Shown here: piece by piece, positions 24,311 through 61,912 of the stretch | Layout of the letters: each line of letters opens with the position of its first letter | Numbering within the stretch: position 1 is the first letter of the stretch | NCBI GenBank assembly: GCA_949317995.1 | Contig: OX439047.1 | Span: 44,083,505 to 44,147,504, forward strand | From: Acholoe squamosa | Lineage: Eukaryota > Annelida > Polychaeta > Phyllodocida > Polynoidae | Length of the DNA: 64,000 nt | Direction: 5' to 3' | Translations under genes and position numbers: made by a program | The notes under the pieces: generated by a model | Databases searched by the model: none | What the model saw: the letters and a program-made list of their open reading frames with translations, nothing else | Told to the model about the DNA's origin: nothing

Positions 24311-26041
24311 CCCAGCAAATTGTTGTGACTCCTCGTCAACCTGTTTGAAGTGGCTCACACATGTCGCTAGATGGAACACGACGTTGCTATAGCACAAGAT
24401 CACCAGGAATAGCAATGGTGGTGATCACATGGCCTCACCTCAGATGGCGAGGATGGTGATCACTCAGACTCACCAGGGATGGCGACGCGGGTGATCACTC
24501 ACCTCGCTAGATGAAACACGCACCTCGTCATAGCACATGTTCACCAGGGATGGCGAGGATCGTGATCACTCATCCTCACCAGGGATGGCGACATGAGTGA
24601 TCACTCATCCTCACCAGGGATGGCGACATGAGTGATCACTCACTTCGCTAGATGAGACGCACACCACGTCATAATGCACATTCACCACGGATGGCAAGGA
24701 TTGTGATCAGTCACCTCGCTAGATAAAACCCGTACCTCGTGATAGCACAGGTTCACCACAGATGGTGAGGATCTTGATCACCCACACTCACCAGGGATGG
24801 CGACACGAGTGATCACTCACCTCGCTAGATGAAACGCACACCATGCCATAGCGCATGTTCACCACGGTTGGCAAGGATCGTGATGACTCACACTCACCAG
24901 GGATGGCAAGGCGGTTGATCACTCACCTCGCTAGATGAAACGCGCACCACGTCATAGCGCAGGTTCACCATGGATGGCGAGAGTGGTGATCACTCAGACT
25001 CACCAGTGATGGCGACGCTGGTGATCACTCACCTTGTTAGATGAAAAGCTCATGATCATCGACTATGGTAATCATGCAGCCTCACATCTGCCAGATCAAA
25101 GTATGTTTTGCCAGAGAAGGTATTGCCATATGTATCTTCCCTCTAACCACAGACAAGGTGTTCATGTTGATATTTCCCTATGTATTTTTCCTGTAACCAG
25201 AGAAAAGGTGTTTATGGATAGTTGCTTTCATTTTAGAGATACCTCTATCTAAATTCAATTGATATTCTCTCTATATAATCTTGTTTGATTCAACTCTGAA
25301 GTATTACATGGAAATCAGTGTGAAACAAAGCACATTTGATACGTATGGGACTTATACTTCATGCCCACACTTCCTAGATAGGCTACATGTGGAACAGTGG
25401 TGCTGTCTCAACACCTTTGGCAATGGTGGTGATAAGTTGCCACTGTGAGTGAGAGTGAGTGACAGATGATGCAATCCTCAGAGAGCATTGACTTGGAGTG
25501 ACACAAATTCACGCATTGAGTGAGACAAAGGCAGGCAATGGTGGTGATAAGTTGCCATTCTGAGTGAGAGTGAGTGACAGATGATGCAATCCTTAGAGAG
25601 CATTGACATGGAGTGACACAAGTTCACGCATTGAGTGAGACCAATGTTGGCAATGGTAGTGATAAGTCACCATTATGTGTGAGAGTTGATGCCAGTGGCA
25701 CGGGAGTGGTACATAATCACACAGTGAGTCAGATCCATGTTGGCGATGCTTGTGATAAGCCGCCATTCTGAGTGAGAGTTGACAGGCAGTGGCACATACT
25801 CACACAGTGAGTTAGATCCATGTTGGCGATGGTGGTGATAAGTCACCATGCTTTGTGAGGGATGACAAGGGGTGGCACATACTCACGCAGTGAGTGAGAT
25901 CATGTTGGTGGCTGTTGTGATAAATTGCCATGCCATGTGAGACTGACACACAGTGGCGAAAGATGACACAGTGAGTTATCACTCAGAAAGGAGTCACCAT
26001 TGATGACCAATCATGGCGACAGATAACGACAATTTGCTGGG
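24311..26041. mobile_element. 1.73-kb TIR element filled with two satellite arrays
   Basis: The termini CCCAGCAAATTGTTGT and ACGACAATTTGCTGGG are inverted (one mismatch) and are flanked by TA on both sides (24309-24310, 26042-26043). The left half (24360-25050) is a tandem array of roughly 100-140-bp units built from CACCAGGGATGGCGA, GTGATCACTCAC and CTCGCTAGATGAAAC. The right half (25419-26030) has 80-115-bp units containing GGCGATGGTGGTGATAAGT and AGTGAGTGAGA. Both arrays share the core TGGCGAnnnTGGTGAT. No ORF. This suggests a mariner-type-ended non-autonomous element that has captured or grown a satellite. Confidence 0.75.
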
Positions 26042-41072: not shown

Positions 41073-41076
41073 ATAT

Positions 41077-41419
41077 TGTAACGGTAATTGGTATGAGTGT
41101 AGAGAAGACACAAGACAGAAGTGCTGTAAATAAACTAGGGTTCACTATTGAAGAATGCAGGAATGTAACATCACTTGTCATCAACTTATTATCAGCTCAC
41201 GTCGTTCCTGTAGCCTAGTAGAGAGTAGCAGTGGAGGCACTAAGACCAGCACAGGGCACGTCCTACTCTCAGCTCAAGCAAGACTAGACTGGCCCCCGTG
41301 CGGCACGCGTCGTCTTATATACGCGCGCCGCCCGGGGCGCCCCCTACCGGATGCGCGGCACACCACCGTGCCGCGCGGTACGTACCGCCGTGCCGCTCTC
41401 GGTGCCGCCCACCGCTACA
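41077..41419 (-). repeat. 3' LTR
   Basis: 343 bp, begins TG and ends CA on either strand. On the minus strand it contains TATATAAG (41321-41314), a likely TATA box. Runs of GTACC/GCGGCAC words are shared with the coding region. Confidence 0.95.
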
Positions 41420-41432
41420 CTCTCCCCTGCCC
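41420..41432 (-). promoter_or_regulatory. Polypurine tract
   Basis: On the minus strand GGGCAGGGGAGAG directly precedes the 3' LTR. This is the expected position and composition for the plus-strand DNA primer of an LTR element. Confidence 0.8.
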
Positions 41433-42411
41433 ATTTAAAGCACAGGGGGGGAACGATTATAAAAAGGTAAAATGGTAAGAATGGACCCTTAGGTCAACAG
41501 CCTACTTTAACTAGTCTTAGAAGTAAGGAGTGAAACTAATCGGGAGCGGCCCCCTTCCGCCCCCTCCAAGCTAAGCCAGCCGTGTGGGGCTATAGGGTTA
41601 GGAACCCCTCCTTAACTTATGCCCTGCCCTTAAGGGGCTTAGTCGGCCAAAAGAGCCCATAACTAAGATTGACATGCTGCTGCCCATGTGGAGCCTAAAA
41701 CCGAGGGCGTCCCCCATGCGCCCCCTCCTAGCTAAAGCCCGCCATGTGGGGAAAACAAGGGCTAGGAGCCCTAACCAAATGTCTATCACTGCCCAGAAGG
41801 GGCTTAGCCGGCCAACGGGGCCCAGAAACTAACTAACCAAAGGGGGTTTAGAACCCCAACGATGAACCTGCCTATAAGAGGCTTAGCCGGCCAACGGGCC
41901 CAAACTCTAAAATAATGAGGGTTCAGAACCCGTGATGACCCTGCTCTTAAGGAGCCTACGCGACAGCGCTAAAAAGAACTAATTCCTGAGTGATGTCGAC
42001 GTTGTCCTCGTCCATCGTCCCGACTATGAAGATGCTGATGATGATGATGAAGGATGATGACACCACCCGCTGCGTGGAGGGGGCCTCCGGCTCACCCCTC
42101 CACGGACCCGGAACCGGGTGCCCAACCCCGGCTCCGCGACGCCTCCCCAGGCTCGGACCAGGCCGGTAGCTCCACCCTACTCGGGGGCCTCCCCCTCAGG
42201 CTGTAACGACACACAGAACAACAGTTTAGCCACGCTGCTCCCCTAGGTTTCCTACCGCGCCTCCTGGCCCCGCTCCTCCCTCTTTTACGGTTCTACTCTC
42301 CAGCACCCCGCTCGCTGGACCTCCCGTACCCCGGGCACGAATTACAGTGCCACTGCCGCGACATATGCTGACATGATTGGTTATACGTCTTCTACTCTAG
42401 TATCAATCGTC
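41433..42411 (-). repeat. Pol 3' untranslated region with degenerate tandem repeats
   Basis: About 1 kb lies between the pol stop and the polypurine tract. The words GGGGCTTAGCCGGCCAACGG, AACTAACTAACC and GGGTTTAGAACCC recur at roughly 80-100-bp spacing (about 41634, 41790, 41876). A GATGATGATG microsatellite lies at 42034-42058. No reading frame of note on the minus strand. Confidence 0.65.
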
Positions 42412-45400
42412 CTAAACTTGAGAACGACTCACCTCCTGCTCCGGCTGGTCCTGCTGGTCCCGCAAGAGGCGCCAGCGGGTGGTGACCGATGCGATGACGT
42501 CGTACACATCCGGGCCTACGACCCGGAGGCGTGACGACATGTCCCCTCCCGTTGCCACGAACTCGTCGCCCATGGAGAGAGGAGGCAGAAGGTAGGCCGC
42601 CCACCTCTCCAGGCGCGACGGGTCACGGTCCGACACCGTCCACCAGGGGAGATGCACGGCGTCTGCTGGAGCGGGTCTCGCACTCGGGCGGCGGCCTCGG
42701 CCTCTGCTGGTGGTGGTTGGGGGTGGAACGAACCGTCTCCTCTGTTGGTGTGCACTCGGAGGAGTACCCCCGAAGGAGGTGCCCGGTCCCTTCGTCTTGG
42801 GGGCGGTCCCTTTTGTCGCCGTGCCCTTCTTGGGCGACTCTTTGTCCGACGGGGGAACATAGACCCGGCCCCACCGCCCGGACGACTGTTGTCTCCTGGC
42901 CTGCTGAGGTCGGGGCTGGTGTGGGGGCATATGCGGACGAGGTGCCGGGGACTGCCACTGAGAGTCAAGCTCAGAGTCACTCAGGGCTCCTCCCGGGCTG
43001 CGGCCGTCGTCTGTCACCAGCCTCTGTAGGGCCGCCTCCTCGTCTGGTCTGTTCCGGTGCCGGGTAGGGGGGTCCTGTTCCTCCACTACTACTGGGGCCG
43101 TACGGGAGTGCGGGGAGAACAGCACTCGGCGCTGAGGGGAGGAGGGCCGAGGCAGTGTTATGGCCGTACGTCCGTCCCACTTCCCCCGGTCCGTGTACAC
43201 CGCTTCTACCTGGACCGGACTCTCCCGGTCCCAGTACCTAATGACGGCGTCCATTGCCTCGACCGGGATGGCGAAGGGCGCGGTTCCACCACCTGGCGCG
43301 GTACCCGTGGCTCTGGGGCCGGAGGGCTGTGAGGGAGCGGCCTCCGGGACGGTCCCCTTGGCAGCTGAGATGGGTTCCCGAGGCCCTGCTGCAGGAGGCG
43401 CCCCGGTGTCCGGCGTGGTTCCTTCTACCTCCTGGGCCGAGGTGGGCTCGGGGGGGACCGCCGATGAGGCCGAACCTGTGTACTGGACGGTTCCCTCCCC
43501 TTGCTCAGGCGGTTCCTCCGGCACGCCCAGCTGACCAGCCTCCGGAGCAGTGTCCTGTACCGGTGTCGGGGACTCCCCTGGAGTCGACCCTGCCTCGAGA
43601 ACGGCCACATCCCCGGCAGCGTTGATGAGAACCGTGGGGCTCTTGCTGGGTGTCAACTGCAGGGATAGGTCCCCGCTCGTGGCAATGATGGACGCCACCG
43701 CGGCCAAGGTCTCCGCCTGAGACGGTGTCAGGGAGTCCTGGAGGGTGGCCGCCAGGTCGTCTGCGGGCGCCGCCCCATGTGTAACTAGGGCCCCCGCTTC
43801 CTGGGCTGCTACCTGCTCCTGAGGCGCTATGCCCGTAGTGGCATCCCCCTCTTGACTGCCCGGTGAAACAGGGGGCGGTTCCGTGTGCGACGCCCCTAGT
43901 TCACCAGTTATTGGGTCCAACCCGACGTCTCCTGGCGGCTCGGTGTCGGAGTCGCTGACCTCCCCGTACTGGAGCGGCGCTACCACCCCTGTTACTGGGT
44001 TCACCACCGTCTCCACCGGCTCGCCGTTCACATCCACCCAAACTCCGGTAAGGGGGTCAAGGAAGACCCCGTCGTCAGGAGCGTCCAGGTCGACGCTCTC
44101 ATAGGAGAGGGGTTGTGGGTGCACCCCATCCGCCTGATCCGCGGCGAGCTGAACCACGGGCTCCCGAGGGGGGGTAGCCGTGGATGTCTCCACCCGCACC
44201 ATGGAGGTTGCCCCGCCGGAGAGGGAGTCCGTGGGGGCGGGGGTTCGGCCGGGGGTCACCAAGGTCTCCGCCAAGCCCGGGTTACCGGCGAGGCTCTGGG
44301 CAACCCTTGCGGACCCTGCCGCGGCACTCACAGGCCTCTCCGGCCCCACCCCGGAGGTCGTTTTGGTCCCCTTACTCGTCGCTACGGGGGTAGGCGCGGC
44401 GGTGGAGAGCCGGGCGCCTGGTCCCTTGGTGGCATCGGGCCCCGGGGCTGCCATGCCCCCCTCCTGCTTGGCCCGTGTGGCTGAGTTGTCCCCAGGCTTC
44501 AGCGTGGGACGGGATCCCGACGTACGGCCAGATGAACTGGAGGGGGTGGTGGTACTGCCCCCTGGTCTCCGCGTGATGGTGGAACCCGGTTTACGGGCGG
44601 AGGAGCCGACGACCTTCTTGGCCCGTTTCGACTGGGGTTGGTTCGAGGCAGGGGGGCTACCCAGCGCGTACCGAGGGGAAGACCCCAGGGAGGAGGGGCT
44701 CTCACGAGGCCGTTTCCGATCCTCCGTCGGAGGAGCCTTCAGTTCCGCCTTCGTCGGTACCCGCGTGTACTCAGGGCCGCTCTTGGGTCGACGAGGCGAG
44801 CGCCGGATCCCCCCGACAGCCACCTCCTCCGTGGCCCCCACCTCCGGCACTTCCTCATCCGAGGAGATTTGGGCGGGGGCATGAGGCGCCGGGGCGGGGC
44901 TGGTGGGGACGATCGGGTAGGCTTCCGGGAAGGCGTCCTTGCCCCTGACCGACCATGGGTGTTTAGCCCCTTCGTCTGCCCGGTGACCCGTGCTGCGGAG
45001 GTGGCGTGTCATGTCGTTGTGGCGGTTGGTGGCGTAGGGCATCCCGGCCTTCCCCAGAGTGCACCCCCGTATGGGGCACAGCCATCCCCTCAGGTGTTCA
45101 CCCTCGGCATGAGCCTTCCGCATGTGCCTGTTGCGCGGGCCCGCCTGGGTGAACGTTTTGGCGCATTTCAGGCACGGGTACCTACGGCTGTCCATCACCC
45201 CGTGCTCACAGAAGAGATGGTTCCGCCTCTGCAAGAGCCTTCTTCCCGCCGCCCAACTGCCGTAGGATCGTGGCCTGAACCGGCCGGTCCCAAAACGGGC
45301 CCGTGGCAGTGGAGGAGCCCCTCTCCTTACTGCAGCCTGGCTGCTGCTGCCCTCCACTGGGACGGTGCCGCTCGCGGTACTAGAGATCCCTGTGCTGCCG

Positions 45401-48400
45401 GCGGTATGGGGACCCTTTTCCACCAACTTCCCTCTCTTACCAGGGTCCACTGCCTCTTCTGCGCGGAGATGAGGGATGGGAGACCCTTCCCGCACTGCCT
45501 GCGTACTTATCTCCTCCTTTTGGCCCCCTCTACGATCCTTCCCTTCGGTTTTCTTAGGAGAACTGCTCGGGATCGTAGTCGTCGTGCCGCTAGCGGTATT
45601 TACGTCTCGTCTCCTCTCGCGGCACGGCGAGAGACTGCGAGAGTTGGACCCTGCTGCGCGGCACGAGGAGGGATTTCCTGAGCGTCCAACTCCGTTAGAA
45701 GACCCACCTTTTCGCCCCGGGAAGGACGAATGGCGAGATCCCACCTTTTCCCTCCTTGTCTCCTCTTTTCCGCCCCCTCCGCGGTCGTTTTGGTCCGTTT
45801 GCCTGGGCGAACGGCCCGGTTTCGGCCTGCCCGTGCCGCTCGCGGTACCTGATTTGTTTACGTCTCGTCTCCTCTCGCGGCACGGCGAGAGACTGCGAGA
45901 GTTGGACCCTGCTGCGCGGCACGAGGAGGGATTTCCTGAGCGTCCAACTCCGTTAGAAGACCCACCTTTTCGCCCCGGGGAGGACGAATGGCGAGATCCC
46001 ACCTTCTCCTTCCTTCTCTCCTCTTTTCCGCCCCCTCTGCGGTCTTTTTCTTCCGTTTTCTTAGGAGAACTGCTCGGGATCGTAGTCGTCGTGCCGCTCG
46101 CGGTACCAGTCCCATTGTCTTCTCGCCTCCTCTCGCGGCACGGCGAGAAACTGCGAGACTTGGATTTCGAACTGGATGTGCGGTACGACCTTGAGCTACC
46201 CCCCTCGATTTTTCTGTTTTTCCGTGCAGGACTACTCACATCTTTTCTCTTGGTCTGGTTCCTCTCCTCCTTCCAGCTTCTACGTGAGGGGGGGGAATGT
46301 GAGAGAGATTTCCTCACCTTTTTGGGAGTGCTATGGTTGGTCCGGGGGCTTCTAGGTCGTGTCCTTGGTGGCCCTGGGGAAACCGTCCCTCGCAGGTCTC
46401 CTTTTCCTGAGGGGCTCCTTCCCCCCTCTCCTTTTTCCCCCGTTCTTTCGGTTGTTATCTTTAGGGTTCCTTTGGCCGATTTTACTGTTTTCCGGCTACT
46501 GCTCCCTCTGGTCACCCTTAGAATCTCCCCCTCTTCTGCACTCTTGGAACTGTCGGTGGAGGGGCTCCTCTTTCTCCCCTTCCGTGGAACCTTGCCTATA
46601 GAAGCGGCTATCCTCTTTGCCTCCTCTCTTCTCCCTGGAGATTCCCCCATTTTTTTATTCTTGGGGATGACGTAGCTCTGCAGGGTTCTCTTCTTCTCCC
46701 TCATTTTTCCTTTTCCAGCACCAAGCCTGTCCCACACGGACGACATGGACGCAGCTACTGCGGCAGCGGCACCTGCGGCAGCGGCACGGGCGGTAGCGGT
46801 AGGTGCGGTAGCGGTACCTGCGGCAGCGGCACGGGCGGCGGCGGCAGCGGTACTAAGGTCTCCACTACTGAGAGAGGAAGACAGAAGAGACAGGGGCCCC
46901 TCCCTTCTCCCCCGACTTACAAAGGGGGACCTGCGAGGAAACTCTAGGCGAGGAAGATCCTGAAGTGGTGCCACCTTTTCCTCCCGAGGTACCGGAGGCT
47001 GTGGGAGGCGGGGCGCTAGGGTCCCCCTACCCACAGAAATTTCTTCCTGGGGAAGGGTTTCCTTCCCCACCCTCCGCACCTCCTCCTGGAAAGAGCGGAC
47101 TCCTTCGGGCGGGGTGGGTACCACCTTCAGGGAGTCAAAGTGCACGATCTTCGTGGTACGGGCTCGGGAGATTTCGTACACGGCCTCCCCTATCCTCTTG
47201 GTGACTTTCCAGGGGCCGGTCCACCAGCGTTCCAGTTTAGGCGAGTGTCCCTTTCTCTTGATTGGATGGAGGTAATACACCATCGTGCCCTCCGGAATAC
47301 TCCGGTTTGAGGCTCGCATGTCATAGTTCCTCGTTTGCCTGGTTACCGCTACCCCCAACTCCCTTCTAGCGACCTCATGCGCGGATGCCATCCTTCTCTG
47401 GAGATCCGCCACGTAACCGTGGACCCCGTCCCCTACCTTCTCTTCCGCCTCCGGATAGAGAAGGGAGATGGGAGGATTGTTTTCTCGTCCCAGCATGAGC
47501 ATATTCGGAGTCATTCCCGTTGAAGAATGGACGGAAGACCGGTACGCCGACATCACCAGCGGTAGCTGCTCGTCCCAATCGCTGTGATCATCCGCCACCA
47601 CGGCCGCTAGAAGGGCCTCGATGGTACGGTTGGCGCGCTCTACCAAGCCATCTGACTTAGGGTTAAAGGCGCAGGTGCGGGTCTGTTTTACCCCTAGGAG
47701 CCGCACCACCTCCCGGAAGAGGTGGGACTGGAAGTTGCGTCCCTGGTCGGAGTGTAGGCTCCCGGGGGAACCGAAACGGCACACCAGTCCTTCTACCAAA
47801 GCCCTGGCTACCGTAGCGGCTTCCTGGTTAGGGAGCGCCGCGGCCTCAGCCCACTTCGTAAAGTAATCGCACATTACCACGATGTATTTATTTCCCCGAG
47901 GGGTAAGGGGCAGGGGTCCCATAACGTCGATGGCTACCCTCTCCATCACCATCCCTACCGGTATGTGACCCATCTTAGCCCGGCTGGGATGTGGGGGAGG
48001 TTTACGCTCGAGGCAACGTGCGCAGGAAGCGGCCCAGTACGTCACCTCCCTCCGGAACTCCGGCCAATACCACCGTTCCTGGACCTTCCTTAAGGTCCTG
48101 TCACGTCCGAAGTGACCCACAACACCCTCGCCATGACAGGCCTCAAAGACTTCCTTCTTCCGCTTTTCCGGTACTAATACCTGGAACTGGCGCTCGCCGC
48201 CCGGAATAAACCACCACCGACCTAAGAGCCCCTCTTTTAATAGGAGACGGCTACGCTGGGCTGCCAAAGATCGGAGCCCATAGGAGGCACCCGCCAGTTC
48301 TTCCTCGGCGGGTTCCGTTTCCTCCGCCGCCCACCTGTACGCTCTTCCCACCAATCCATCGGCCTTTTGGTCCCGTATCCACTCTTCCCTCACTTCTTCG

Positions 48401-50757
48401 GCTACGTCAGGGTCCCGAGAACCTTGCCGTGTCACGGCTCGGACGCCAGTAGCGGCGGCCCCCACCTCCGGTTCTTCGTCCGCTCTCCCACATTGCCGGC
48501 ATGGGATGCGGGAGAGGCCGTCGGCATTTCCGTGTAGACGACCCGGCCGGTGCTCCACGCTGTAGTCGTATGTATCGAGGATTTGGAGCCACCGCGCCAC
48601 CTGGCCCTCCGGCTCCTTGAAGGCCATAACCCACTTAAGGGCCGCGTGATCAGTCCGAATCAGGACGTGCCGCCCGAGGAGGTAATGCCGGAACCTCTTA
48701 AGTCCAAAGATGATGGCCAATAATTCGCGTCGGGTCACGCAATAATTACGCTCCGGCCTGGTGAGAGTCCGGCTGGCGTAGGATAGGACCACCTCGACCT
48801 CCCCTTGTTTCTGGGAGAGCACCGCCCCCAAACCGGTGTCAGACGCGTCCGTGTCCAGCACGATGGCGCCCTCCTCCTCGGGGTATCCTAAGATAGGTGC
48901 CTCTATCAGGAGCTGACGCAAAGCATCGAAGGCCGCCTGGCAGTTGCTATCCCAGCGGAAGGATTTCCCCTTCTCTGCTAAGGTGGTGAGGGGTTTAGCA
49001 AGGGTGGCGAATCCGGGGACAAAGGCCCGGTAGTAGCCCGCGAGGCCCAGGAAACTCCTTACTTCCGTCAAACTTTCCGGGGTGGGCCAATTCCGAACGG
49101 CTTCCACTTTCCTGGGGTCGGTAGCAATTCCCCGGGCACTGACCACATGCCCTAGAAAAGCCACTTCCCTCTGCGCGAGATGGCATTTGGAAGGCTTTAC
49201 TTTCAGGCCCGCACCCTCGAGGCGGGACAGCACCTCCCCCAGCCGGTGCAGGTGACTATCGAAGTCCCGTGAGAAGACCACGATGTCGTCGAGGTAAACA
49301 AGGCACGACGACCATTGCAGGCCCCGCATCGCCACCTCCATCAACCTCTCGAACGTACCGGGGGCGTTGCAGAGGCCGAAAGGCATGACGGTGAACTGAA
49401 AGAGCCCCCGGTGCGTGGAGAAGGCTGTCTTCTCCCGGTCCTCCTCAGCCATGGCCACCTGCCAATAACCGCTGACGAGGTCCATCGTGCTGAACCAGCA
49501 CGACCCCGCCAGGGTATCTAGGGAGTCGTCGATGCGAGGCAGGGGGTACGCATCTTTTATTGTTGCTGCGTTTAAGCGACGGTAATCGACGCAGAACCTC
49601 ATGCTGCCGTCTTTCTTCTTAACGAGGACGACAGGTGAGGCCCACGGCCCCGTCGCTGGCTCGATTATTCCAGCATCCAGCATCTTCTCTACCTCAGCAT
49701 CGACGAGCGAGCGGCGATGGGGGGCCAAGCGCCTTGGGGGTTGTTTAATAGGCGGGTGTTCTCCGGTTCGAATGCGGTGCTCCACCATGGTGGCTCGGCC
49801 CGTTTCTTCGGGGCACAGCTGGAAAGCCTTGCGGTGCCGGCGAAGGAGCGTGGCCACCGCTTCCCTCTTATCCTCCTCTACCCCTGCCGTCATCTTTTCA
49901 ATAATGCCTTCCTCATCCGGAGATAATAGTTCCCTCTCCTGTAGGGAGACCGCTTCGGCTGACCCCGGATGTGCTGTCACCATACGGCACTCTCGAGGGC
50001 ACGTGGTACCCCCCTCCTCCCGAGGCTGCACTGGTTCAATCGATGCCAGTGTCATGTCCCGGTAAATGATAACTGGGGACTGGCCAGGGTTGAAAACCCG
50101 CAGAGGTGTCTCATTCTGCCGAGTGTCGACCAGAGTACGGCTGACGAGGAAGCCCCGTCTTTCCTCCACTTCCCGCAGGCCTTCTATTAAACCGTCATCC
50201 GGACCTTCCCAGTCCCCTACTAAGTAGGCGTCCACTACGGCTTCTTCTCCTGCTGCAATCACGGCCATCTTTCGGCTGAGGACGCGGCACTCCTTCATGG
50301 GAGCCTCCCTCCTGCCCCTAAGCCACAAGCACTCGCCGGCCAGGTCCACTACCAGCTGTGACTCCCGCAAGAATCCTGCACCCAATATGGCATCTGAACT
50401 AATGTCTGAGAGTTCGAAGATGGTGTCCCACTCGTGGCCACCCAAAGCTAGTTGGGATCGTATCCGTCCGTGCAACTTCAGTGGTCGTCCCTCCACCGAG
50501 TATAGGGACTCCGTGGTCTCTTCCAAAGCACCTGGTTCCCCGTTGGTTTGCCACCAAGACAGAGAGAGGATGTTCACTGCTGCTCCCGTGTCCACCAGAC
50601 ACCCTAGGGAACAACCCCGCATCTTCCCCTCCATCAACAAGCCGGAACCGCCCTTCTCCAGGCGCCCAGGAATAAGCTGTCTCTCTTGCCTATCTCTTTC
50701 GCTGTCGACCCCAGAACGGCTGTCTTCTGGGGTCGTTCCTAGTTTTCCGCCTGTTTC
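42412..50757 (-). CDS. pol: Pol polyprotein with ~1,560-aa C-terminal extension
   Basis: The -1 frame relative to gag is open from 50757 to the stop at 42412. Numbering from the TTG codon at 50640 gives 2,742 aa. There is no ATG before codon 3, so synthesis by frameshift from gag is likely. Aspartic protease: DTGA at 17-20 and ILGAG at 85-89. RT: VDYRRLN 351-357, MPFGLCNAP 419-427, catalytic YLDD 449-452. RNase H: D596/D598, E639, D664. Zinc H2C2: H836, H843, C873, C876. Integrase DD35E: D905, D965, E1001. A GPY/F-like WTGPW lies at 1140-1144. From ~1180 the protein continues with an Ala-rich block (1264-1298), Arg/Ser-rich repeats (1357-1725), two C2H2-like fingers (1823-1886) and a Pro/Ala/Thr-rich tail. 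No hydrophobic membrane segment is visible, so it is not an envelope. Gypsy Pol proteins are usually around 1,000-1,400 aa. The function of the extension is unknown. Confidence 0.95.
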   Translation of the reverse strand, partial: ETGGKLGTTPEDSRSGVDSERDRQERQLIPGRLEKGGSGLLMEGKMRGCSLGCLVDTGAAVNILSLSWWQTNGEPGALEETTESLYSVEGRPLKLHGRIRSQLALGGHEWDTIFELSDISSDAILGAGFLRESQLVVDLAGECLWLRGRREAPMKECRVLSRKMAVIAAGEEAVVDAYLVGDWEGPDDGLIEGLREVEERRGFLVSRTLVDTRQNETPLRVFNPGQSPVIIYRDMTLASIEPVQPREEGGTTCPRECRMVTAHPGSAEAVSLQERELLSPDEEGIIEKMTAGVEEDKREAVATLLRRHRKAFQLCPEETGRATMVEHRIRTGEHPPIKQPPRRLAPHRRSLVDAEVEKMLDAGIIEPATGPWASPVVLVKKKDGSMRFCVDYRRLNAATIKDAYPLPRIDDSLDTLAGSCWFSTMDLVSGYWQVAMAEEDREKTAFSTHRGLFQFTVMPFGLCNAPGTFERLMEVAMRGLQWSSCLVYLDDIVVFSRDFDSHLHRLGEVLSRLEGAGLKVKPSKCHLAQREVAFLGHVVSARGIATDPRKVEAVRNWPTPESLTEVRSFLGLAGYYRAFVPGFATLAKPLTTLAEKGKSFRWDSNCQAAFDALRQLLIEAPILGYPEEEGAIVLDTDASDTGLGAVLSQKQGEVEVVLSYASRTLTRPERNYCVTRRELLAIIFGLKRFRHYLLGRHVLIRTDHAALKWVMAFKEPEGQVARWLQILDTYDYSVEHRPGRLHGNADGLSRIPCRQCGRADEEPEVGAAATGVRAVTRQGSRDPDVAEEVREEWIRDQKADGLVGRAYRWAAEETEPAEEELAGASYGLRSLAAQRSRLLLKEGLLGRWWFIPGGERQFQVLVPEKRKKEVFEACHGEGVVGHFGRDRTLRKVQERWYWPEFRREVTYWAASCARCLERKPPPHPSRAKMGHIPVGMVMERVAIDVMGPLPLTPRGNKYIVVMCDYFTKWAEAAALPNQEAATVARALVEGLVCRFGSPGSLHSDQGRNFQSHLFREVVRLLGVKQTRTCAFNPKSDGLVERANRTIEALLAAVVADDHSDWDEQLPLVMSAYRSSVHSSTGMTPNMLMLGRENNPPISLLYPEAEEKVGDGVHGYVADLQRRMASAHEVARRELGVAVTRQTRNYDMRASNRSIPEGTMVYYLHPIKRKGHSPKLERWWTGPWKVTKRIGEAVYEISRARTTKIVHFDSLKVVPTPPEGVRSFQEEVRRVGKETLPQEEISVGRGTLAPRLPQPPVPREEKVAPLQDLPRLEFPRRSPFVSRGRREGPLSLLSSSLSSGDLSTAAAAARAAAAGTATAPTATARAAAAGAAAAVAASMSSVWDRLGAGKGKMREKKRTLQSYVIPKNKKMGESPGRREEAKRIAASIGKVPRKGRKRSPSTDSSKSAEEGEILRVTRGSSSRKTVKSAKGTLKITTERTGEKGEGGRSPSGKGDLRGTVSPGPPRTRPRSPRTNHSTPKKVRKSLSHSPPSRRSWKEERNQTKRKDVSSPARKNRKIEGGSSRSYRTSSSKSKSRSFSPCRERRREDNGTGTASGTTTTIPSSSPKKTEEKDRRGGGKEERRKEKVGSRHSSSPGRKGGSSNGVGRSGNPSSCRAAGSNSRSLSPCRERRRDVNKSGTASGTGRPKPGRSPRQTDQNDRGGGGKEETRREKVGSRHSSFPGRKGGSSNGVGRSGNPSSCRAAGSNSRSLSPCRERRRDVNTASGTTTTIPSSSPKKTEGKDRRGGQKEEISTQAVREGSPIPHLRAEEAVDPGKRGKLVEKGPHTAGSTGISSTASGTVPVEGSSSQAAVRRGAPPLPRARFGTGRFRPRSYGSWAAGRRLLQRRNHLFCEHGVMDSRRYPCLKCAKTFTQAGPRNRHMRKAHAEGEHLRGWLCPIRGCTLGKAGMPYATNRHNDMTRHLRSTGHRADEGAKHPWSVRGKDAFPEAYPIVPTSPAPAPHAPAQISSDEEVPEVGATEEVAVGGIRRSPRRPKSGPEYTRVPTKAELKAPPTEDRKRPRESPSSLGSSPRYALGSPPASNQPQSKRAKKVVGSSARKPGSTITRRPGGSTTTPSSSSGRTSGSRPTLKPGDNSATRAKQEGGMAAPGPDATKGPGARLSTAAPTPVATSKGTKTTSGVGPERPVSAAAGSARVAQSLAGNPGLAETLVTPGRTPAPTDSLSGGATSMVRVETSTATPPREPVVQLAADQADGVHPQPLSYESVDLDAPDDGVFLDPLTGVWVDVNGEPVETVVNPVTGVVAPLQYGEVSDSDTEPPGDVGLDPITGELGASHTEPPPVSPGSQEGDATTGIAPQEQVAAQEAGALVTHGAAPADDLAATLQDSLTPSQAETLAAVASIIATSGDLSLQLTPSKSPTVLINAAGDVAVLEAGSTPGESPTPVQDTAPEAGQLGVPEEPPEQGEGTVQYTGSASSAVPPEPTSAQEVEGTTPDTGAPPAAGPREPISAAKGTVPEAAPSQPSGPRATGTAPGGGTAPFAIPVEAMDAVIRYWDRESPVQVEAVYTDRGKWDGRTAITLPRPSSPQRRVLFSPHSRTAPVVVEEQDPPTRHRNRPDEEAALQRLVTDDGRSPGGALSDSELDSQWQSPAPRPHMPPHQPRPQQARRQQSSGRWGRVYVPPSDKESPKKGTATKGTAPKTKGPGTSFGGTPPSAHQQRRRFVPPPTTTSRGRGRRPSARPAPADAVHLPWWTVSDRDPSRLERWAAYLLPPLSMGDEFVATGGDMSSRLRVVGPDVYDVIASVTTRWRLLRDQQDQPEQEVSRSQV
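44983..45219 (-). other. Zinc-finger pair in the Pol extension
   Basis: Residues 1808-1886 of Pol. Finger 1 is C1823-X2-C1826-X12-H1839-X4-H1844 with the usual KTF aromatic spacer. Finger 2 is looser, C1855-X4-C1860 with candidate histidines 1874, 1880 and 1886. Basic residues (RNRHMRKAH) suit nucleic-acid binding. Role in target choice, RNA packaging or nuclear targeting is conjecture. Confidence 0.75.
45525..46150 (-). repeat. 258-bp in-frame repeats (86 aa), about 2.5 copies
   Basis: Landmarks ending GCGGCA at 45624, 45882 and 46140 are exactly 258 bp apart, so the repeat keeps the reading frame. Each unit encodes an Arg/Ser-rich peptide with SRSLSPCRERRRDVN, then TASGT, then KVGSRHSS and SSNGVGRSGNPSS. 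The composition resembles RS domains of RNA-binding proteins, but no RNA-recognition motif is present. Confidence 0.9.
46747..46851 (-). repeat. Ala-rich block encoded by GCGGCAGCGGTAC-type repeat
   Basis: Pol residues 1264-1298. The DNA repeats GCGGCAGCGGTAC/GCGGCAC. The same DNA word is used in gag (52977-53240) in another frame to encode PLPQ. Confidence 0.85.
50706..50748 (-). promoter_or_regulatory. Predicted -1 ribosomal frameshift signal at the gag/pol junction
   Basis: On the minus strand, GGAAAAC (50748-50742) is followed by a 6-nt spacer (TAGGAA, containing the gag stop). Then comes a perfect 11-bp stem CGACCCCAGAA / TTCTGGGGTCG (50735-50725 with 50716-50706) with an 8-nt loop. Gag and pol overlap only over 50739-50757, and pol is in the -1 frame. 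The heptamer is not the strict XXXYYYZ form: the A-site slip AAC to AAA is standard, the P-site slip GAA to GGA is imperfect. Confidence 0.8.
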
Positions 50758-53351
50758 TCAGCTGTCTTGGAGGGGGCCCCGGACGGGGAGCGAGTCTCCG
50801 CTACCTCTACCATTGCTTTCCAGGCGGGGCAGTTTACCCGCATGTGCCCTAACTCCGCGCAGTGATAACAGCGTAGGTCGCCATTGCGGGGTCTCGCCGA
50901 AGACGAGCGGCCAGAATTACCTCTACCGTTCCCGCTACTCCGGCTGTTCTTCTCGCGAAAGGAATCGCGGAAGGCGGCGTTAGCTTCCCTATCCTTCGCC
51001 GACTCTGCGCGCAGTTGCGCCAGCTCCTCTGCCATGGTCTTGTCGGCGGCTCTCACACTGCTGGAATTTCGGTTAGGTCTTAGGACGGCCTCACCTCGCA
51101 GGGCGATCTGTACTGCGTCGACTAGCGTCTCGGGAGTCCCTTGGTGAATCCAGTTCTGCAACTCCAGATCCTTCAGGCTGTCTATGAATTTATCCTTCGC
51201 TATCACGTTAATGGTGTTAACGTCGGCACCCGGATAAGCCATTCGAGTATACCGCTCGATTTCTTCTGCGTAGGCCTGCAAGCACTCCCCTTTTACCCTT
51301 TCCTTGGCTCGTAGGATGGCCTTATACATGGCGGCCTGGTTAGGTGGTTGAAAGCGGGCCACCAGCGCCTCCCGCAGTTGTAAGTACCCCCGGGCGGTAC
51401 CCGATTCGACTCCCGCCAGCAATCTTCGGGCAATGCCGGTGAGGCTTAGACCTAAGAAAACTCCAGCTGTTTCGTGATCCCATCCGTTCGCCCTCCGGCA
51501 AAGGTCGAAGTGCGCCAGGTACTCCGTCAGATGACCCGACCCATCAAATTTACCGGGCATGAATATGGGTTTCGACAACTTGTCTCCCTTGCCCCATTCT
51601 TTGGTGGTCGAGTTGCCCTCGCTGCCACTGATGCCCTTGAGTGCCTTCTCCGGGCCACCCCACTGTTTGATAGAGGGTTCTCCCGCTGGTCCTCGGGGCA
51701 ACTCCCTGGCGGGTGCGACAGGCCGAGGGAGGTTACTCCAATCATCCCCTGCTGCCGGGGGATGTGCAGGCACCATCCGCTGCGTAGGGTATCCCTGGGG
51801 GTTTTCCGCCTCGGGGAACCTGAGGCCATCCGAAGGGGCTCTCCAGCCCCAAAGGGGAGGGGACACGTCGGACCCATATGATGGTGCCAGCCCCACGGGA
51901 GGGGCGACCGCTGGTCCCATAGGTGCTCCTGCATACCCCGCTGTCCCTACTGGGACCCCGTGCCTCTCAAGGATAGTGTGTCTCTCCCGGTGACTCGGGT
52001 ACATGCGGCCCTCCCCTAATCGGAGAAAGCCTGGTGGAAGACGCGAGGCGTCTACCGGTTCCGGGAGCTCCGCCAACGGCATCTCCCATCCTCCCGTCCT
52101 TGGGTAGCTTGTTGATTCGCGATCTCCTAGGCGTGCCGGAGGCATTGGACTAGGGGCCAGAACGCCATCTCTCTCTGCCTCTTGTCTCACTGGGATCGGG
52201 TCTGTCTCGCGGCCGCCTGGGTCCACGCGGCTCTCCCCTAACTGGAGTAACCCCGGTGGTAGGCGAGACGTATTACTTGTTTTAGGTAATGCCGCCGAGG
52301 GCATCTCCCCTCCCTCCTTCCTCGGGAAGGACATCGCCCCACGGTCATCAGGGCAAATTGTAGGTGCGGGGCTAGCCGCCCTCGAAGAGCACACGCTGGA
52401 AGGCACCGAAGGGGCAGCTCCCTGAAACATGGGGGTCCATGGCAAACTCCCCTGAGGGGGAACGCTAGGGGCGTCTGACAAGTAGAGTGGTAACCGGGCC
52501 TCCTGCCTGGCCAGGGGAGTCCGAGCCTCCCGATTATCCCTCCAGACGGACTCGGTTTCCTTGCGGACCGGTGCCGCGAATGATGATCCCCATGGTAGCG
52601 ACAGGTCACCCCCCTGCCGTGGAGCGCCTTCCCAGGGAGATCCCCTATCCCCTGTATAGTCGGCCGGGGAAACTGGGACGTCACGAGTCGTCTCCGCCCC
52701 TCTTTCTAGGTGAGTCAGCGTCAAGCTCTGAGCTAGCTCCTCCCATCTAGCCTCTTGTACTGCCCTCTCCCTCTCCCTAGCCTTCCGCCTTTCATCCATT
52801 TCCACGCTGTACTGCCAAGCCCAGGCTCTTTGGTTCGTCACGAGACCATCTTCCATCGGACGAGGCTGCGGCACCATCCGTGGTACGTGTATGTCAGCAG
52901 CCGCGGCAGCGGCACCAGGTACCGTGTGGTGCTGAGGCATGGCCTGGTACTGCGGTACGTGCGGTAGCGGTACCCCTTGGCCTCTCCCTTGCGGCAGCGG
53001 CACCTCCTGATCCAGTCCCCGCGGCAGCGGCCTCTCCTGATCCGGCACCTGCGGCAGCGGTACGCCCTGGTCCAGTCCCTGCGGCAGCGGTACGCCCTGG
53101 TCCAGTCCCTGCGGCAGCGGTACGCCTTGGTCCAGTCCCTGCGGCAGCGGTACGCCTTGGTCCTGCGGTACGAGGGTCCCCTGCGGCAGCGGTACGTGCG
53201 GCAGCGGTACGGTGTCCCCCTGCGGCAGCGGCACGGAAAATGGCGGACCTTCTTCCTTGGACCTTCTCAGAAACATGTCCTCTCCAGGGATAACTTCCAC
53301 TAGGTTACCCCTTCTTCCTGCCATAAGTTCTTGAATTTCCCTGTCACTCAT
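50739..53351 (-). CDS. gag: Gag polyprotein
   Basis: 870 aa from the ATG at 53351. The open frame runs upstream into the LTR, but this is the first ATG after the primer site that heads a sensible protein (MSDREIQELMAG). Residues ~39-130 are PLPQG-type repeats with a 30-bp DNA period at the core. Residues ~170-215 are charged and may form a coiled coil. A block near EMPSAALP...RLPPGLL is duplicated 74 aa later. Residues ~596-755 resemble the retrotransposon capsid domain (FDGSGHLTEYLAHFDL, then YAEEIERY). A CCHC zinc knuckle (C828, C831, H836, C841) near the C-terminus should bind RNA. It overlaps pol by 19 nt. Gag forms the particle and packages element RNA. It is longer than typical Gypsy Gag because of the repeat-rich N-terminal half. 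Confidence 0.93.
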   Translation of the reverse strand: MSDREIQELMAGRRGNLVEVIPGEDMFLRRSKEEGPPFSVPLPQGDTVPLPHVPLPQGTLVPQDQGVPLPQGLDQGVPLPQGLDQGVPLPQGLDQGVPLPQVPDQERPLPRGLDQEVPLPQGRGQGVPLPHVPQYQAMPQHHTVPGAAAAAADIHVPRMVPQPRPMEDGLVTNQRAWAWQYSVEMDERRKARERERAVQEARWEELAQSLTLTHLERGAETTRDVPVSPADYTGDRGSPWEGAPRQGGDLSLPWGSSFAAPVRKETESVWRDNREARTPLARQEARLPLYLSDAPSVPPQGSLPWTPMFQGAAPSVPSSVCSSRAASPAPTICPDDRGAMSFPRKEGGEMPSAALPKTSNTSRLPPGLLQLGESRVDPGGRETDPIPVRQEAERDGVLAPSPMPPARLGDRESTSYPRTGGWEMPLAELPEPVDASRLPPGFLRLGEGRMYPSHRERHTILERHGVPVGTAGYAGAPMGPAVAPPVGLAPSYGSDVSPPLWGWRAPSDGLRFPEAENPQGYPTQRMVPAHPPAAGDDWSNLPRPVAPARELPRGPAGEPSIKQWGGPEKALKGISGSEGNSTTKEWGKGDKLSKPIFMPGKFDGSGHLTEYLAHFDLCRRANGWDHETAGVFLGLSLTGIARRLLAGVESGTARGYLQLREALVARFQPPNQAAMYKAILRAKERVKGECLQAYAEEIERYTRMAYPGADVNTINVIAKDKFIDSLKDLELQNWIHQGTPETLVDAVQIALRGEAVLRPNRNSSSVRAADKTMAEELAQLRAESAKDREANAAFRDSFREKNSRSSGNGRGNSGRSSSARPRNGDLRCYHCAELGHMRVNCPAWKAMVEVAETRSPSGAPSKTAEKQAEN
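52977..53240 (-). repeat. 30-bp-period repeats encoding PLPQG units in Gag
   Basis: The unit GCGGCAGCGGTACGCC plus CTGGTCCAGTCCCT occurs about four times almost perfectly, with further diverged copies on both sides. It encodes VPLPQGLDQG. Copy number probably varies between element copies. Confidence 0.9.
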
Positions 53352-53385
53352 ATCAAAAACCCCAGCGTAGAGTTCTTTCCTTCGA

Positions 53386-53403
53386 AAACACCGGCTGTCA
53401 CCA
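53386..53403 (-). promoter_or_regulatory. Primer-binding site
   Basis: One base inside the 5' LTR the minus strand reads TGGTGACAGCCGGTG, starting with TGG as needed to pair with a tRNA CCA end. I could not assign the tRNA. Confidence 0.7.
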
Positions 53404-53404
53404 A

Positions 53405-53747
53405 TGTAACGGTAATTGGTATGAGTGTAGAGAAGACACAAGACAGAAGTGCTGTAAATAAACTAGGGTTCACTATTGAAGAATGCAGGAATGTAACATC
53501 ACTTGTCATCAACTTATTATCAGCTCACGTCGTTCCTGTAGCCTAGTAGAGAGTAGCAGTGGAGGCACTAAGACCAGCACAGGGCACGTCCTACTCTCAG
53601 CTCAAGCAAGACTAGACTGGCCCCCGTGCGGCACGCGTCGTCTTATATACGCGCGCCGCCCGGGGCGCCCCCTACCGGATGCGCGGCACACCACCGTGCC
53701 GCGCGGTACGTACCGCCGTGCCGCTCTCGGTGCCGCCCACCGCTACA
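53405..53747 (-). repeat. 5' LTR
   Basis: 343 bp, no difference from the 3' LTR found on reading through. TATATAAG lies at 53649-53642 on the minus strand. The transcript leader before the gag ATG is short, about 53 nt beyond the LTR. Confidence 0.95.
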
Positions 53748-53751
53748 ATAT

Positions 53752-58700: not shown

Positions 58701-59282
58701 CTAATCAAGCTTCCCTCTTGTTGGAGGCACTTTTTTAGTAACACTTCTCTGGTTTAAGCACTGGGAATTTGAGAATTTCAATTTTGAATTTTTTTCTTGT
58801 GGCAAGGTTAACTCCATATTGACTGGCTTAGTGACTTTCTTATATGAAACATCAAAACCAAGAAATTCCATGACCTCAATGAGTACATTTCTTTGACGGA
58901 GGCATTCATGCTCAGAATCGGCTACTATTATAAAATCATCTAAATAGTTGATTAGCTTTTGCACCTTGTAAGCCCTAGCAATGTTTGCTACAAAGTTGGA
59001 AATGCAGTCAAAAATATTAGGTGCACATTTGAGACCAAAACTGAGCCTGTTGTTAACAAAATACTCGGTGCCACTTCCAGAGTCCCAGGTGAAACCCTGA
59101 AATTCTGTGTGAGGGCCATACACATTAATACTTCTAAAAGCGGATTTTAAATCCACGACTGACATCCAGCTGTTAGGATTCATGACATCAACTACAGTGT
59201 TTACAGACAAATAAGTAAAGGGTTTATATGTGGTGCGCATGAAGTTATTAATATATTTTCCCTCAGGCATAGAGCAATCAGT
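58701..59282 (-). pseudogene. DIRS-like reverse transcriptase, C-terminal part
   Basis: Starts at the codon ACT (59282-59280) next to the LINE A tail, with TDCSMPEGK, then VDLKSAFRSI, LSFGLKCAPNIF and catalytic YLDD (58946-58935). These are the palm motifs typical of DIRS/Ngaro RTs. The frame is open to 58701. The matching N-terminal part is at 61912-61328 on the far side of the inserted LINE. Confidence 0.85.
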
Positions 59283-61327
59283 TTTTTTAAGTCGTTTATT
59301 GGGCAAGAAACATATACAAGAATGTATGTGTTTTACCTAGCTCCTACGCATTGTAGTGCTTACGCTAGGACCCCTAAATGCCTTATAACTTGTACATAGT
59401 ATTTCTAAAGAAATTAGCAGTCACATTTCTTATAACACTGCATACAGGAGTTCAGTCTGACTGACTCCTCTTAGTACCAATATTTGATATACCGTTTCAT
59501 GTGATGATGATGAGATGAGATGAGGAGTAAAATTACATTACATTTCAATCCAATATGACAATATTATATATAGCAGTTTGCATAGACCTTTTTCACACTT
59601 GATTTAAAAATATACAAATCGTTTATTTGTGTATATTCAGGTTTTAACTGGTTCCATCTATTAATACTTCTGTAGAATGCACTTCTCAGAACAATAGGTT
59701 TAAGGCTATGGGGTACAATAAGTCTCTTTCCCTGGCGAAATCTTGTGGCTATTTCTCTCCTATCAACTAAATTAACAATTCGTGACAAGATAAAACCATA
59801 TGTCAGTAAATGTAAGTCCCTTCTAATACAGAGATCCGAGCAATTACCCTGATCCTGAATTTGCTTAGTGGTCATAATTGGGTTTTCTTCTAATTTAACT
59901 TTATATACCATTCTTAATGCCCTGTTCTGTAATAACTGAAGTTCTTTATTTCTCCTCTATAGTCCCTGTCCCATATATAATCACAATATTCAAAAGTTGG
60001 TAGTATCATTGATTTAAAAACATCTAGTGCAGAAGATTCGTCCAACAAATTTCTTATTCTACCCATTTGATATATTTTATGTCTGACAGCCCTCATAACA
60101 TTAGCTCGATGTTCAATAAATTTAAGTTCAGTGTCCATCTTCAAACCTAAGTATTAAAAAGCTTCAACCTTTTCTAATAAAACATTATTAAGAGTAAAAG
60201 CAGTTGGATCATTTCGAGGTATATTAAAAGCCATCCATTTTGTCTTTTTTTCATTTATGGTAAGGGAATTATTCAGGCACCCCATGTTGATTTTCCTGAT
60301 AACAGTATTCATTTCAGGCGGTGTACATACAGAAACTACTACACCATCTGCATACAATCAACAATCTTTGGTAAAGAATTTATATAATATATGGAAAAAA
60401 GCACTGGACCCAAAACCGAGCCCTGCGGGACTCCACAGGTAACTGGTAACAAGGAGGATGTGTTGTCATTAGCAAATGTGCATTGTAGTCTATTAGTTAA
60501 ATAGTTCTTAAAAAATTCACAAGTCTTTTTGCAAAGTCCCAAAGCAGTTAGTTTTTTTTCAGTAATTTTGAATGTGTAACAGTATCAAAAGCTTTTTTAA
60601 AGTCTATATATAGGCAATAGGTAGATTTGTTAAGAATAAAGTTGTTAATTATTGTGCTAAGATGTTCAGTGATAGCTGTCTGGGTCAAGTGCCCTTTTCT
60701 GTAGCCATGCTGTGTTGGGCACAAAAGCCCATGTCTTTCCATATATATCTGTAGTCTTTTACATACTATTTTGTCTAACAATTTACCAGTAATAGGGAGT
60801 AGACTAATTGGTCTTAAATCCTCAACTTCTATAGAGTTGGCCTTCTTCGGTAAAGGAATAACAGTGTTTTTTTTCCCAATCATTGGGGAAGGTGGCAGTA
60901 CTTAAATATTTGTTATACAGCGAAAGGAAAATATCAGGAATGGCCAACATAGTATCCTTAATTACAAAAGATTTACAATGTAGTATGGCTGATGTTTTTG
61001 TTTTTTCTTATCTTAATTGCCTTCACCAGCTTAATTAAATCAATGTATGATATATTATATAACAGGTTTGTATTGGGTGTAGGGAGCAGCATGATTCTCC
61101 TGTCCATCACCAGGTGGCAGTTTTTTAGATAACCTATCTTCACCTATACCTGTAAAGAAACTATTTATATACTCTGCACAGTCTTCAGGAGGAATAATAA
61201 TATTCGTTGTATTATTTCTTAATTTAATTAGTGATGCGCAGGTCCTACTAGGAAGAACCTTCTTAATTGCTTCCCAATACTTGGCTGGATCATTTTTCCT
61301 ATATTCCAATAATTCAATCATCTCCCT
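59283..61327 (-). mobile_element. 2.05-kb 5'-truncated LINE inserted in the DIRS RT
   Basis: Ends on the minus strand with AATAAACGACTT and a 7-nt A tail (59288-59282). Begins at 61327 directly after the DIRS codon ATA (61330-61328). The family differs from the LINE at 395-1440, because the 3' termini are unrelated. There is no visible target duplication beyond a possible single A. The endonuclease is missing, so the copy is 5' truncated. Confidence 0.85.
59564..61327 (-). pseudogene. LINE reverse transcriptase, frameshifted
   Basis: Pieces in successive frames: a linker (AKYWEAIKKVLPSR; 61327-61055), then LRPISLLPITGKLLDKI, GYRKGHLTQTAI and YIDFKKAFDTV (60883-60548). Next come CGVPQGSVLGPVLFSIY (60542-60339), the catalytic box as YADG instead of YADD (60357-60154), and the thumb and C-terminal region (60144-59564). 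At least four frame breaks and the loss of the second catalytic Asp make it inactive. The sequence 61054-60884 is still recognisable between breaks. Confidence 0.85.
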
Positions 61328-61912
61328 TATGGGTCTTAACATGCTGTTAGATTTCTCAACCCCACCCAGAGCATGAATGCATCTAGGGGGGGCATCTACC
61401 TTGGTAACAAATCCATCTCTTAATTCTTGCTGTATAATGTCGCACATTTCGGAATAGAAACTACCCTCAAGAATAGATTTATAATTCCTGCAGTGATATG
61501 CAGATTGGCAGTCATCATAGACAATTTTAAAGCCCTGGAGGATTCCCTCCCAGATAAATTTGGCCTCCTGAAAATTACCAGTGTACACGTTACCACTACC
61601 AGAGACAAAATTGGTGACTCTACACGGCTTCAATTGAGCACGAGCATTACAAATATAAAAGTCACACTTGTATGCACCATCCATACACTCAGGGTACACG
61701 GCAATGGTTGATAACGAATCATAACCATCAATGCTATAGAGTGGCAATTCTTGACCAATAGGCAGACAGTCCCCAATGATACAAGTGTCTGACAAGTCGC
61801 TTTCCATGCCAGCCAATTTGGGGACAAATATTGCACTGACCCAACCAAATATATTCATTATGTTGGGCTTCTGATGCAGGTAAGATTTCTGATATACATG
61901 TACCAGGGACAC
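61328..61912 (-). pseudogene. DIRS-like reverse transcriptase, N-terminal part
   Basis: The first 195 residues of a frame that continues into LINE sequence. FIWEGILQGFKIV (119-131), YHCRNYKSILEGSFYSEMCDIIQQEL and PPRCIHALGGVEKS are the conserved N-terminal motifs of DIRS/Ngaro RT. After LRPI (192-195) the sequence switches abruptly to LINE linker. It resumes as TDC at 59282, a junction inside one conserved RT motif. The upstream part (1-118) may include the end of the gag-like ORF. Confidence 0.8.

Follow-up and report, generated by a model that had tools for sequence, protein, structure and literature searches.

A selected C-terminal extension of Pol, possibly an integrase-linked module, in Gypsy retrotransposons of the annelid Acholoe squamosa

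What does a Gypsy retrotransposon do with a protein segment behind its integrase that makes up more than half of Pol? The question is raised by a 64,000-nucleotide stretch of the genome of the polynoid annelid Acholoe squamosa (GCA_949317995.1, contig OX439047.1, positions 44,083,505 to 44,147,504; hereafter the window). A first-pass annotation of its sequence had placed here a Gypsy Pol with a long C-terminal extension, and our analysis finds this description correct, with the extension beginning near Pol residue 1180 (Table 1). The extension is a protein kept under purifying selection. We tentatively suggest that it could be an accessory module that works with the integration complex.

The window contains a single long terminal repeat (LTR) retrotransposon of 12.67 kb on the minus strand (41077-53747). 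Its two LTRs, both 343 bp, show no difference and are bounded by ATAT duplications. The LTRs and the order of protease, reverse transcriptase (RT), RNase H and integrase place it in Ty3/Gypsy (Metaviridae), the protease scoring under Pfam's cut-off. Up to Pol residue 1172, Pfam reports RT, RNase H, H2C2 and rve, with the protease and p58_C below cut-off. The Pol open reading frame (ORF; 42412-50640, minus) has 2,742 codons counted from a TTG and is open already from 50757; it overlaps Gag slightly and is read in the -1 frame with respect to it. GC content is 58-66% in bins within the element versus 34-47% around it. Among the 19 fetched 3' ends with an LTR, the polypurine tract is identical in 18 and differs by one base in L067, and the same layout recurs in many other genome copies. 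Because the LTRs are identical and flanked by a 4-bp duplication, this is one complete element and no chimera, which disposes of the assembly error joining two elements that the first-pass annotation had considered.

The integrase and the extension are fused in one frame. As first described, this frame continues past the integrase without a stop; over the 1,563 codons the sense frame has none in the window, versus 22-47 in the other five frames, and the open frame is more than chance. The Ala-rich block, Arg/Ser-rich repeats, zinc fingers, Pro/Ala/Thr-rich tail and non-repetitive end listed at that time are all present. Much of the extension is of low complexity, the Arg/Ser repeats having a tandem unit of 258 bp. 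There are ten cysteines, five of them within the finger block, and two basic stretches with net charges of +33 and +32. A Pfam scan up to E 1 gives no chromodomain, the mark of a chromovirus. The membrane segment in a third coding part that marks an Errantivirus or an envelope was not found either, the top 19-residue Kyte-Doolittle mean being 1.28 on this simple scale only; the view that the extension is not an envelope is borne out by hydropathy. Two antisense ORFs (44638-45681 and 45476-46675) are probably by-products of the high GC content; the longest open stretch of the two antisense frames varies between copies (206-381 and 214-489 codons, respectively), and these frames contain 15-30 stops per frame over the extension.

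Selection was examined in other copies of the element. The genome (1.48 Gb, 63 contigs) was searched with the last 301 bp of the extension, giving 40 DNA matches: 34 near ones, the window included, and six divergent ones. All 40 are on contigs 1-18, of which the 17 with a stated length measure 54-127 Mb. The extension was fetched for 26 of the 33 other near copies (L011 for its last 1,249 codons only) and for all six divergent copies. It is open over the fetched length in 17 of the 26 and broken in nine, namely L014, with one stop, and eight others. Nei-Gojobori comparisons with the window used open copies only, leaving out the nine broken ones and L023, which is open after an in-frame deletion. 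The ratio of replacing to silent change (dN/dS) over the whole extension is about 0.35, with values of 0.32-0.46 in the 13 pairs whose silent divergence (dS) exceeds 0.18. It is 0.56-0.73 in the three least diverged pairs, where changes are few or lie mainly in the repeats. For the fingers, dN/dS is 0.04-0.12 where dS exceeds 0.1 (for example, 28.5 silent versus 9.5 replacing changes). The C-terminal domain (CT) has up to six silent and zero to one replacing changes, the Pro/Ala/Thr tail has a ratio of about 0.35 between two cassette types, and the Arg/Ser repeats are near neutral over the computed pairs (0.54-0.90). A reliable dN/dS above 1 occurs in no stretch of the extension. Because copies share cassettes, the pairs depend on one another and amount in essence to a few old comparisons. 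Between the window and L013, changes at codon positions 1, 2 and 3 number 6, 4 and 28 in the fingers (chi-square p 8e-7) and 81, 74 and 145 in the tail (p 2e-7), and the third-position excess is significant at p < 1e-5 in the fingers, the tail and the first 300 residues. A dN/dS below 1, which the first-pass annotation had proposed to look for, is thus what other copies show, and neither a missing nor a neutrally decaying extension describes them.

L023 (C2:63900670-63905428) is a separate case, in which an in-frame deletion of 3,600 bp joins the integrase end to the extension tail; the fingers are gone and the frame remains open. A retro-copied splice was considered for this junction and rejected in favor of an internal deletion, as the break has no GT-AG and the ends share a few bases.

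The extension also recurs in divergent families of the same genome. A protein search with its last 103 residues gave 593 candidates, of which 150 were scored, all at E 4.3e-9 or better. Open frames of at least 2,000 codons hold 65 of the 150: 19 of 34 in the window's own family, 0 of 10 at 63-74% identity and 46 of 106 at 35-47% identity. The six divergent copies that were fetched (L035-L040) are decayed. L035-L039 have RT, integrase, fingers and CT in order in broken frames, and L037 and L039 also have the conserved middle block (MID). The RT and integrase matches of L038 overlap, so that something is missing between them; L040 has MID and CT alone despite 9.2 kb searched upstream; and L035 and L036, which share a stop, look like duplicates of a single copy. 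Two open-frame families were sampled by 2.8 kb each from L085 (near copy L087) and L086, with integrase borders from L088 and L089. Although silent sites in these distant families are at or near saturation (dS from 1.1 to infinite), the order of blocks is kept: the MSVW block, the Arg/Ser part, C-x-H-G-(V/I)-M with two fingers, an LGSSP-type motif (plain in L085, modified in L086), MID, a WQSP/WDSP motif, SFRHTPPSARRRRR and CT. L085 compared with L086 gives a dN/dS of 0.27 overall and 0.19 in MID; in the fingers and CT, the replacing proportions (pN) are 0.19 and 0.21 at a silent proportion (pS) of 0.77. Ratios of either family to the window (0.21-0.66 where defined) cannot be relied on, as replacing and silent sites alike are close to saturation. 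The presence of CT in the genome search and in divergent families bears out the impression that the end of the extension is conserved. L089 (positions 1-1441, C1:24085060-24086500) has, in addition, a second GPY/F-like module after the first, seen in a single comparison (27 aligned residues, BLASTP E 2e-6).

Relatives outside this genome were sought with the RT region, considering candidates of 0.55-1.75 times the query length. Among the best 120 of 3,711 matches, five outside proteins (P0030, P0041, P0091, P0105 and P0119; RT-region identity 61-78%) carry the finger block behind the integrase. In P0105 the integrase is disrupted and little of the protein follows the fingers. P0030 (53% over 91 residues) and P0041 (50%) have a clear CT; in P0091 it appears in the multiple alignment only (24%), pairwise BLAST being not significant, and in P0119 it is not convincing. 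A pattern search found the MSVW block in none of the five. Other proteins among the matches listed, mostly multi-element predictions, run up to 891 residues past the last core match. In an RT tree of 110 rows, the six extension-bearing rows fall on one side of a branch with a support value (SH-aLRT) of 99, and 0 of 500 label shuffles gave a grouping as low; the tree was made by a quick method and carries a long-branch warning that includes P0119. A homology search with the whole extension found no relative among 8,000 candidates, probably being swamped by low-complexity words. A protein search with the CT region gave no match among 302 candidates (proteins of about 529-1,683 residues), and two scans of viral contigs gave no relative. 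Among the papers listed by searches of open-access PMC aimed at this feature, none was seen to describe such a Pol extension. A survey of annelid LTR elements bases its families on RT/RNase H and integrase; zinc finger, C-terminal, extension and chromodomain are all terms that its main text does not use (PMC8556966). The extension-bearing clade may well be present in the trees of that survey with its extension not noted there.

Similarity searches identify the fingers and leave the end domain without a match. Past residue 1172, the Pfam search that the first-pass annotation had called for yields only a weak C2H2 finger (E 0.19) and no other domain. The paired Cys/His ligands and profile similarity agree in assigning C2H2 zinc fingers. 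Against the PDB, a profile of the finger block finds tandem C2H2 proteins, ZNF410 best (E 7e-11), then CTCF and TFIIIA, whereas the extension sequence by itself reaches ZNF410 at E 0.043 only. In eight aligned rows, the finger 1 ligands C43, C46, H59 and H64 are invariant; Pfam up to E 1 reports zf-C2H2 in five and zf-C2H2_4 in six of these rows, the window row lying under the curated cut-off. Finger 2 lacks its second Cys in the decayed copies L035-L037 and has altered spacing in P0041. Residues at the recognition positions, numbered by the usual convention, vary between families as read from the alignments. For MID and CT, neither Pfam nor the PDB offers a convincing match; DUF317 (one of eight rows, E 0.0055) and QCR8 (E 2.2 and 0.87) were treated as chance. 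By its sequence, CT appears to be an end domain with no counterpart in the databases that were searched.

The insertions themselves were read in many copies. An LTR was recognized in 19 of the 20 3' ends that were fetched (not in L060), making 20 flanks with the window. The 4-bp duplication has a central TA in all 20 and is ATAT in 12, the frequency of TA in the window outside the element being 0.080. At the 5' side, 12 of 13 fetched ends gave an LTR, and the duplication matched its 3' counterpart in all 12. A 4-bp target-site duplication is therefore present in all 13 insertions read at both ends, the window included; a 14th has no 5' LTR. Eleven of the 12 LTR pairs are without mismatch, and the twelfth aligns over unequal lengths (340 and 343). 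The insertions with matching LTRs are recent.

These data point, with a chance that falls a little short of even, to an accessory module, conserved within a Gypsy clade, that would work with the integration complex on nucleic acid in the nucleus. The extension would be translated as the last part of Gag-Pol, following a -1 shift, and therefore in low amounts and inside the particle, like integrase, with which it most likely travels, judging from the fused frame. The fingers and basic region may bind nucleic acid, and the short motifs and CT may bind host or element proteins. Together, these parts could carry the integration complex in the nucleus or anchor it there, and would impose no long target sequence, in a manner akin to chromodomains or to the host tethers of other integrases. 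Several observations weigh against this proposal. No two of the 20 flanks (at most 600 bp each, with a low-complexity filter) share sequence at E 1e-5, so that beyond the 4-bp core there is no direct sign of tethering to a sequence. The ATAT target motif is already known from ordinary Gypsy elements of Drosophila, those of the 297 and 412 groups (PMC3276498). Sequence-specific targeting by the fingers is not supported. Of the first-pass interpretation, targeting finds no support at the sequence level; an added, selected segment with a conserved end and, by hydropathy, no envelope character is supported. The extension as a whole is less constrained than the enzymes, because the yardstick from eight copies is lower (dN/dS 0.01-0.04 in RT and 0.05-0.08 in integrase); the fingers are close to integrase. 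In the comparison of the window with L013, changes in the Arg/Ser repeats are spread over the codon positions without bias (p 0.12). At about 1,560 residues, the extension is far larger than a chromodomain, and the block starting with Met could mean an independent protein.

This last point leads to the alternative that fares best, an RNA-handling protein, either cut out by the protease or translated from a start of its own, that would bind element RNA for export, packaging or regulation. We regard it as unlikely, though a serious competitor. Its precedent is CERV of Cer1, a Gypsy element of C. elegans with a large ORF between pol and the 3' LTR; CERV is reported to be nuclear, needed for genomic RNA export and dependent on an essential Cys loop (PMC10309623). 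The two basic stretches and the TFIIIA match of the finger profile fit such a role. C2H2 fingers can bind RNA. The MSVW block starts with Met in three families, the window's own and those of L088 and L089; however, in the window's family this Met stands in a weak context, and the pattern used did not detect the block in the five outside proteins. CERV is translated from a spliced mRNA, whereas here the single strong acceptor-like site is lost in most young copies. That site (46886-46867) scores 12.5, the best in the element, versus a mean shuffle maximum of 9.0. Of 25 loci aligned besides the window, five retain it, namely L009 and the broken copies L025, L029, L030 and L032; the other 20, some of which are pieces of a single copy that overlap, lack it. 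A spliced sub-genomic mRNA seems improbable as a general mechanism on this ground, and the likeness to CERV is one of described features.

A host-interaction or silencing-evasion module, whose central cassette exchange would be selected, for instance against small-RNA silencing or a host binding factor, is less probable still. Segment typing of 17 sequences separates two main types (A and B) over the region that starts at the fingers and takes in most of the tail; L026 has a third type at the fingers. The repeats fall into eight or nine types and the end into a single one, and copies combine these types differently. Silent divergence from the window is 0.05-0.07 for RT and 0.14-0.20 for integrase; it reaches 0.55 in the fingers and is about 0.04-0.11 over the last two stretches. 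The center of the extension is a mosaic of cassettes exchanged by recombination, which would fit evasion, but plain template switching between old subfamilies also yields mosaics, and switching between co-packaged RNAs is the established recombination route in LTR elements. The lack of a stretch with reliable dN/dS above 1 also speaks against evasion, and the cassette comparison covered Pol only. Selection for cassette exchange may add to either the integrase-linked or the RNA-handling explanation. Passive or decaying read-through of captured filler with no function of its own, to which the near-neutral repeats, the low complexity and the 3.6 kb lost in frame by L023 would be congenial, is very improbable because it is contradicted by the 65 of 150 scored matches in long open frames, the low dN/dS of the fingers and the block order kept at near-saturated divergence.

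Table 1. Features of the element in the window
Feature	Position	Strand	Basis
Target-site duplication ATAT, first copy	41073..41076	.	flank reading
3' LTR, 343 bp	41077..41419	-	LTR comparison
Polypurine tract GGGCAGGGGAGAG	41420..41432	-	same tract in other copies
C-terminal extension of Pol, 1,563 residues	42412..47103	-	ORF, copies, selection, genome search
C-terminal domain (CT), LPWW..R.P...ERWAA.LLPP..MG.....GG........VTTR	42460..42651	-	alignments and genome search
Short conserved motif SFxxTPPSAxxxRR	42724..42780	-	alignments
Short conserved motif around WQSP	42934..42969	-	alignments
Conserved middle block (MID), AMDAVIRYWDRESPV...WDGR	43069..43278	-	alignments
Short conserved motif SSLGSSPxxxLGS, in disordered-looking tail	44656..44694	-	alignments
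C-x-H-G-V-M and two C2H2-type zinc fingers	44989..45210	-	alignments and profiles
Arg/Ser-rich repeats, fastest evolving part (dN/dS 0.54-0.90)	45469..46206	-	repeats and dN/dS
Conserved block MSSVWDRLG...SYVIPK (MSVW block)	46663..46746	-	comparison of families
Ala-rich block, differs between copies	46750..46851	-	segment typing
Pol core: protease, RT, RNase H, integrase, GPY/F region	47104..50640	-	Pfam
Gag ORF from first ATG, CCHC knuckle just under Pfam cut-off	50739..53351	-	ORF and Pfam
Putative primer-binding site TTGGTGACAGCCGG..., adjoining 5' LTR	53386..53404	-	position and TGG start only
5' LTR, 343 bp	53405..53747	-	matches 3' LTR exactly
Target-site duplication ATAT, second copy	53748..53751	.	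flank reading

Other parts of the element and its surroundings have features of their own. From the Pol stop to the polypurine tract (41433-42411) lies nearly 1 kb of seemingly non-coding DNA with recurring GGCTAAGCC-like stretches seen by eye, and the N-terminal part of Gag (52960-53235) contains 30-bp tandem repeats encoding VPLPQGLDQG-type units. Outside the element, tandem repeat arrays with units of 35, 71, 83, 106, 115, 141 and 212 bp occupy 24364-25978. Open stretches at 755-1447, 58704-59336, 60551-60901 and 61058-61912 (minus) resemble, by eye, pieces of other reverse transcriptase elements. Rfam at gathering scores gave no match in the window. Elsewhere in the genome, contig 63 (15,641 bp) reads as mitochondrial over its first 2,500 bp, with nad4L and nad4 following tRNAs that, judged by anticodon, are F, E, P and T; this agrees with the gene order of annelids. 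Rfam reports two tRNAs in this contig stretch, and ARAGORN with the bacterial code reports none.

More than half of Pol is thus an added, selected segment, and several families of a single genome carry it in long open frames. It is a concrete case of an element acquiring and diversifying a third protein, and of the evolution of an integrase partner. A paper on plant elements states that LTR retrotransposons rarely fix additional conserved domains (PMC9289625). About as tentatively as the link to the integration complex, we suggest that a whole animal Gypsy clade may have an enzyme-sized third module: a protein binding nucleic acid, in which C2H2 fingers are combined with a new fold at the C-terminus, and which would act with integrase and swap its central cassette between near-identical active copies.

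Four known systems are comparable. Like the extension described here, the chromodomain of Ty3/Gypsy chromoviruses is an extra conserved domain in frame behind the integrase GPY/F region; the present segment, in contrast, has no chromodomain that Pfam could find and consists of about 1,560 residues with zinc fingers, a long tail and an unmatched end domain. Cer1 is also a Gypsy element with a large non-envelope-like segment, containing a zinc-binding-like region, between integrase and the 3' LTR. CERV, however, has 517 residues, a spliced mRNA, a Cys loop possibly of C4 type and a G-protein-like domain (PMC10309623), whereas the annelid extension has C2H2 fingers, an uninterrupted Pol frame and no conserved acceptor that could be found. 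Ginger1 transposases likewise join a Gypsy-type integrase with GPY/F to extra C-terminal domains, but they belong to DNA transposons, and their extras, OTU, Ulp1 or PHD (PMC2836005), do not occur in our Pfam report. Finally, orchid Gypsy elements with an AlkB-type ORF are similar in that a lineage has fixed an extra conserved domain, and differ in that theirs is, according to the same plant-element paper, a separate ORF with a known enzyme fold (PMC9289625).

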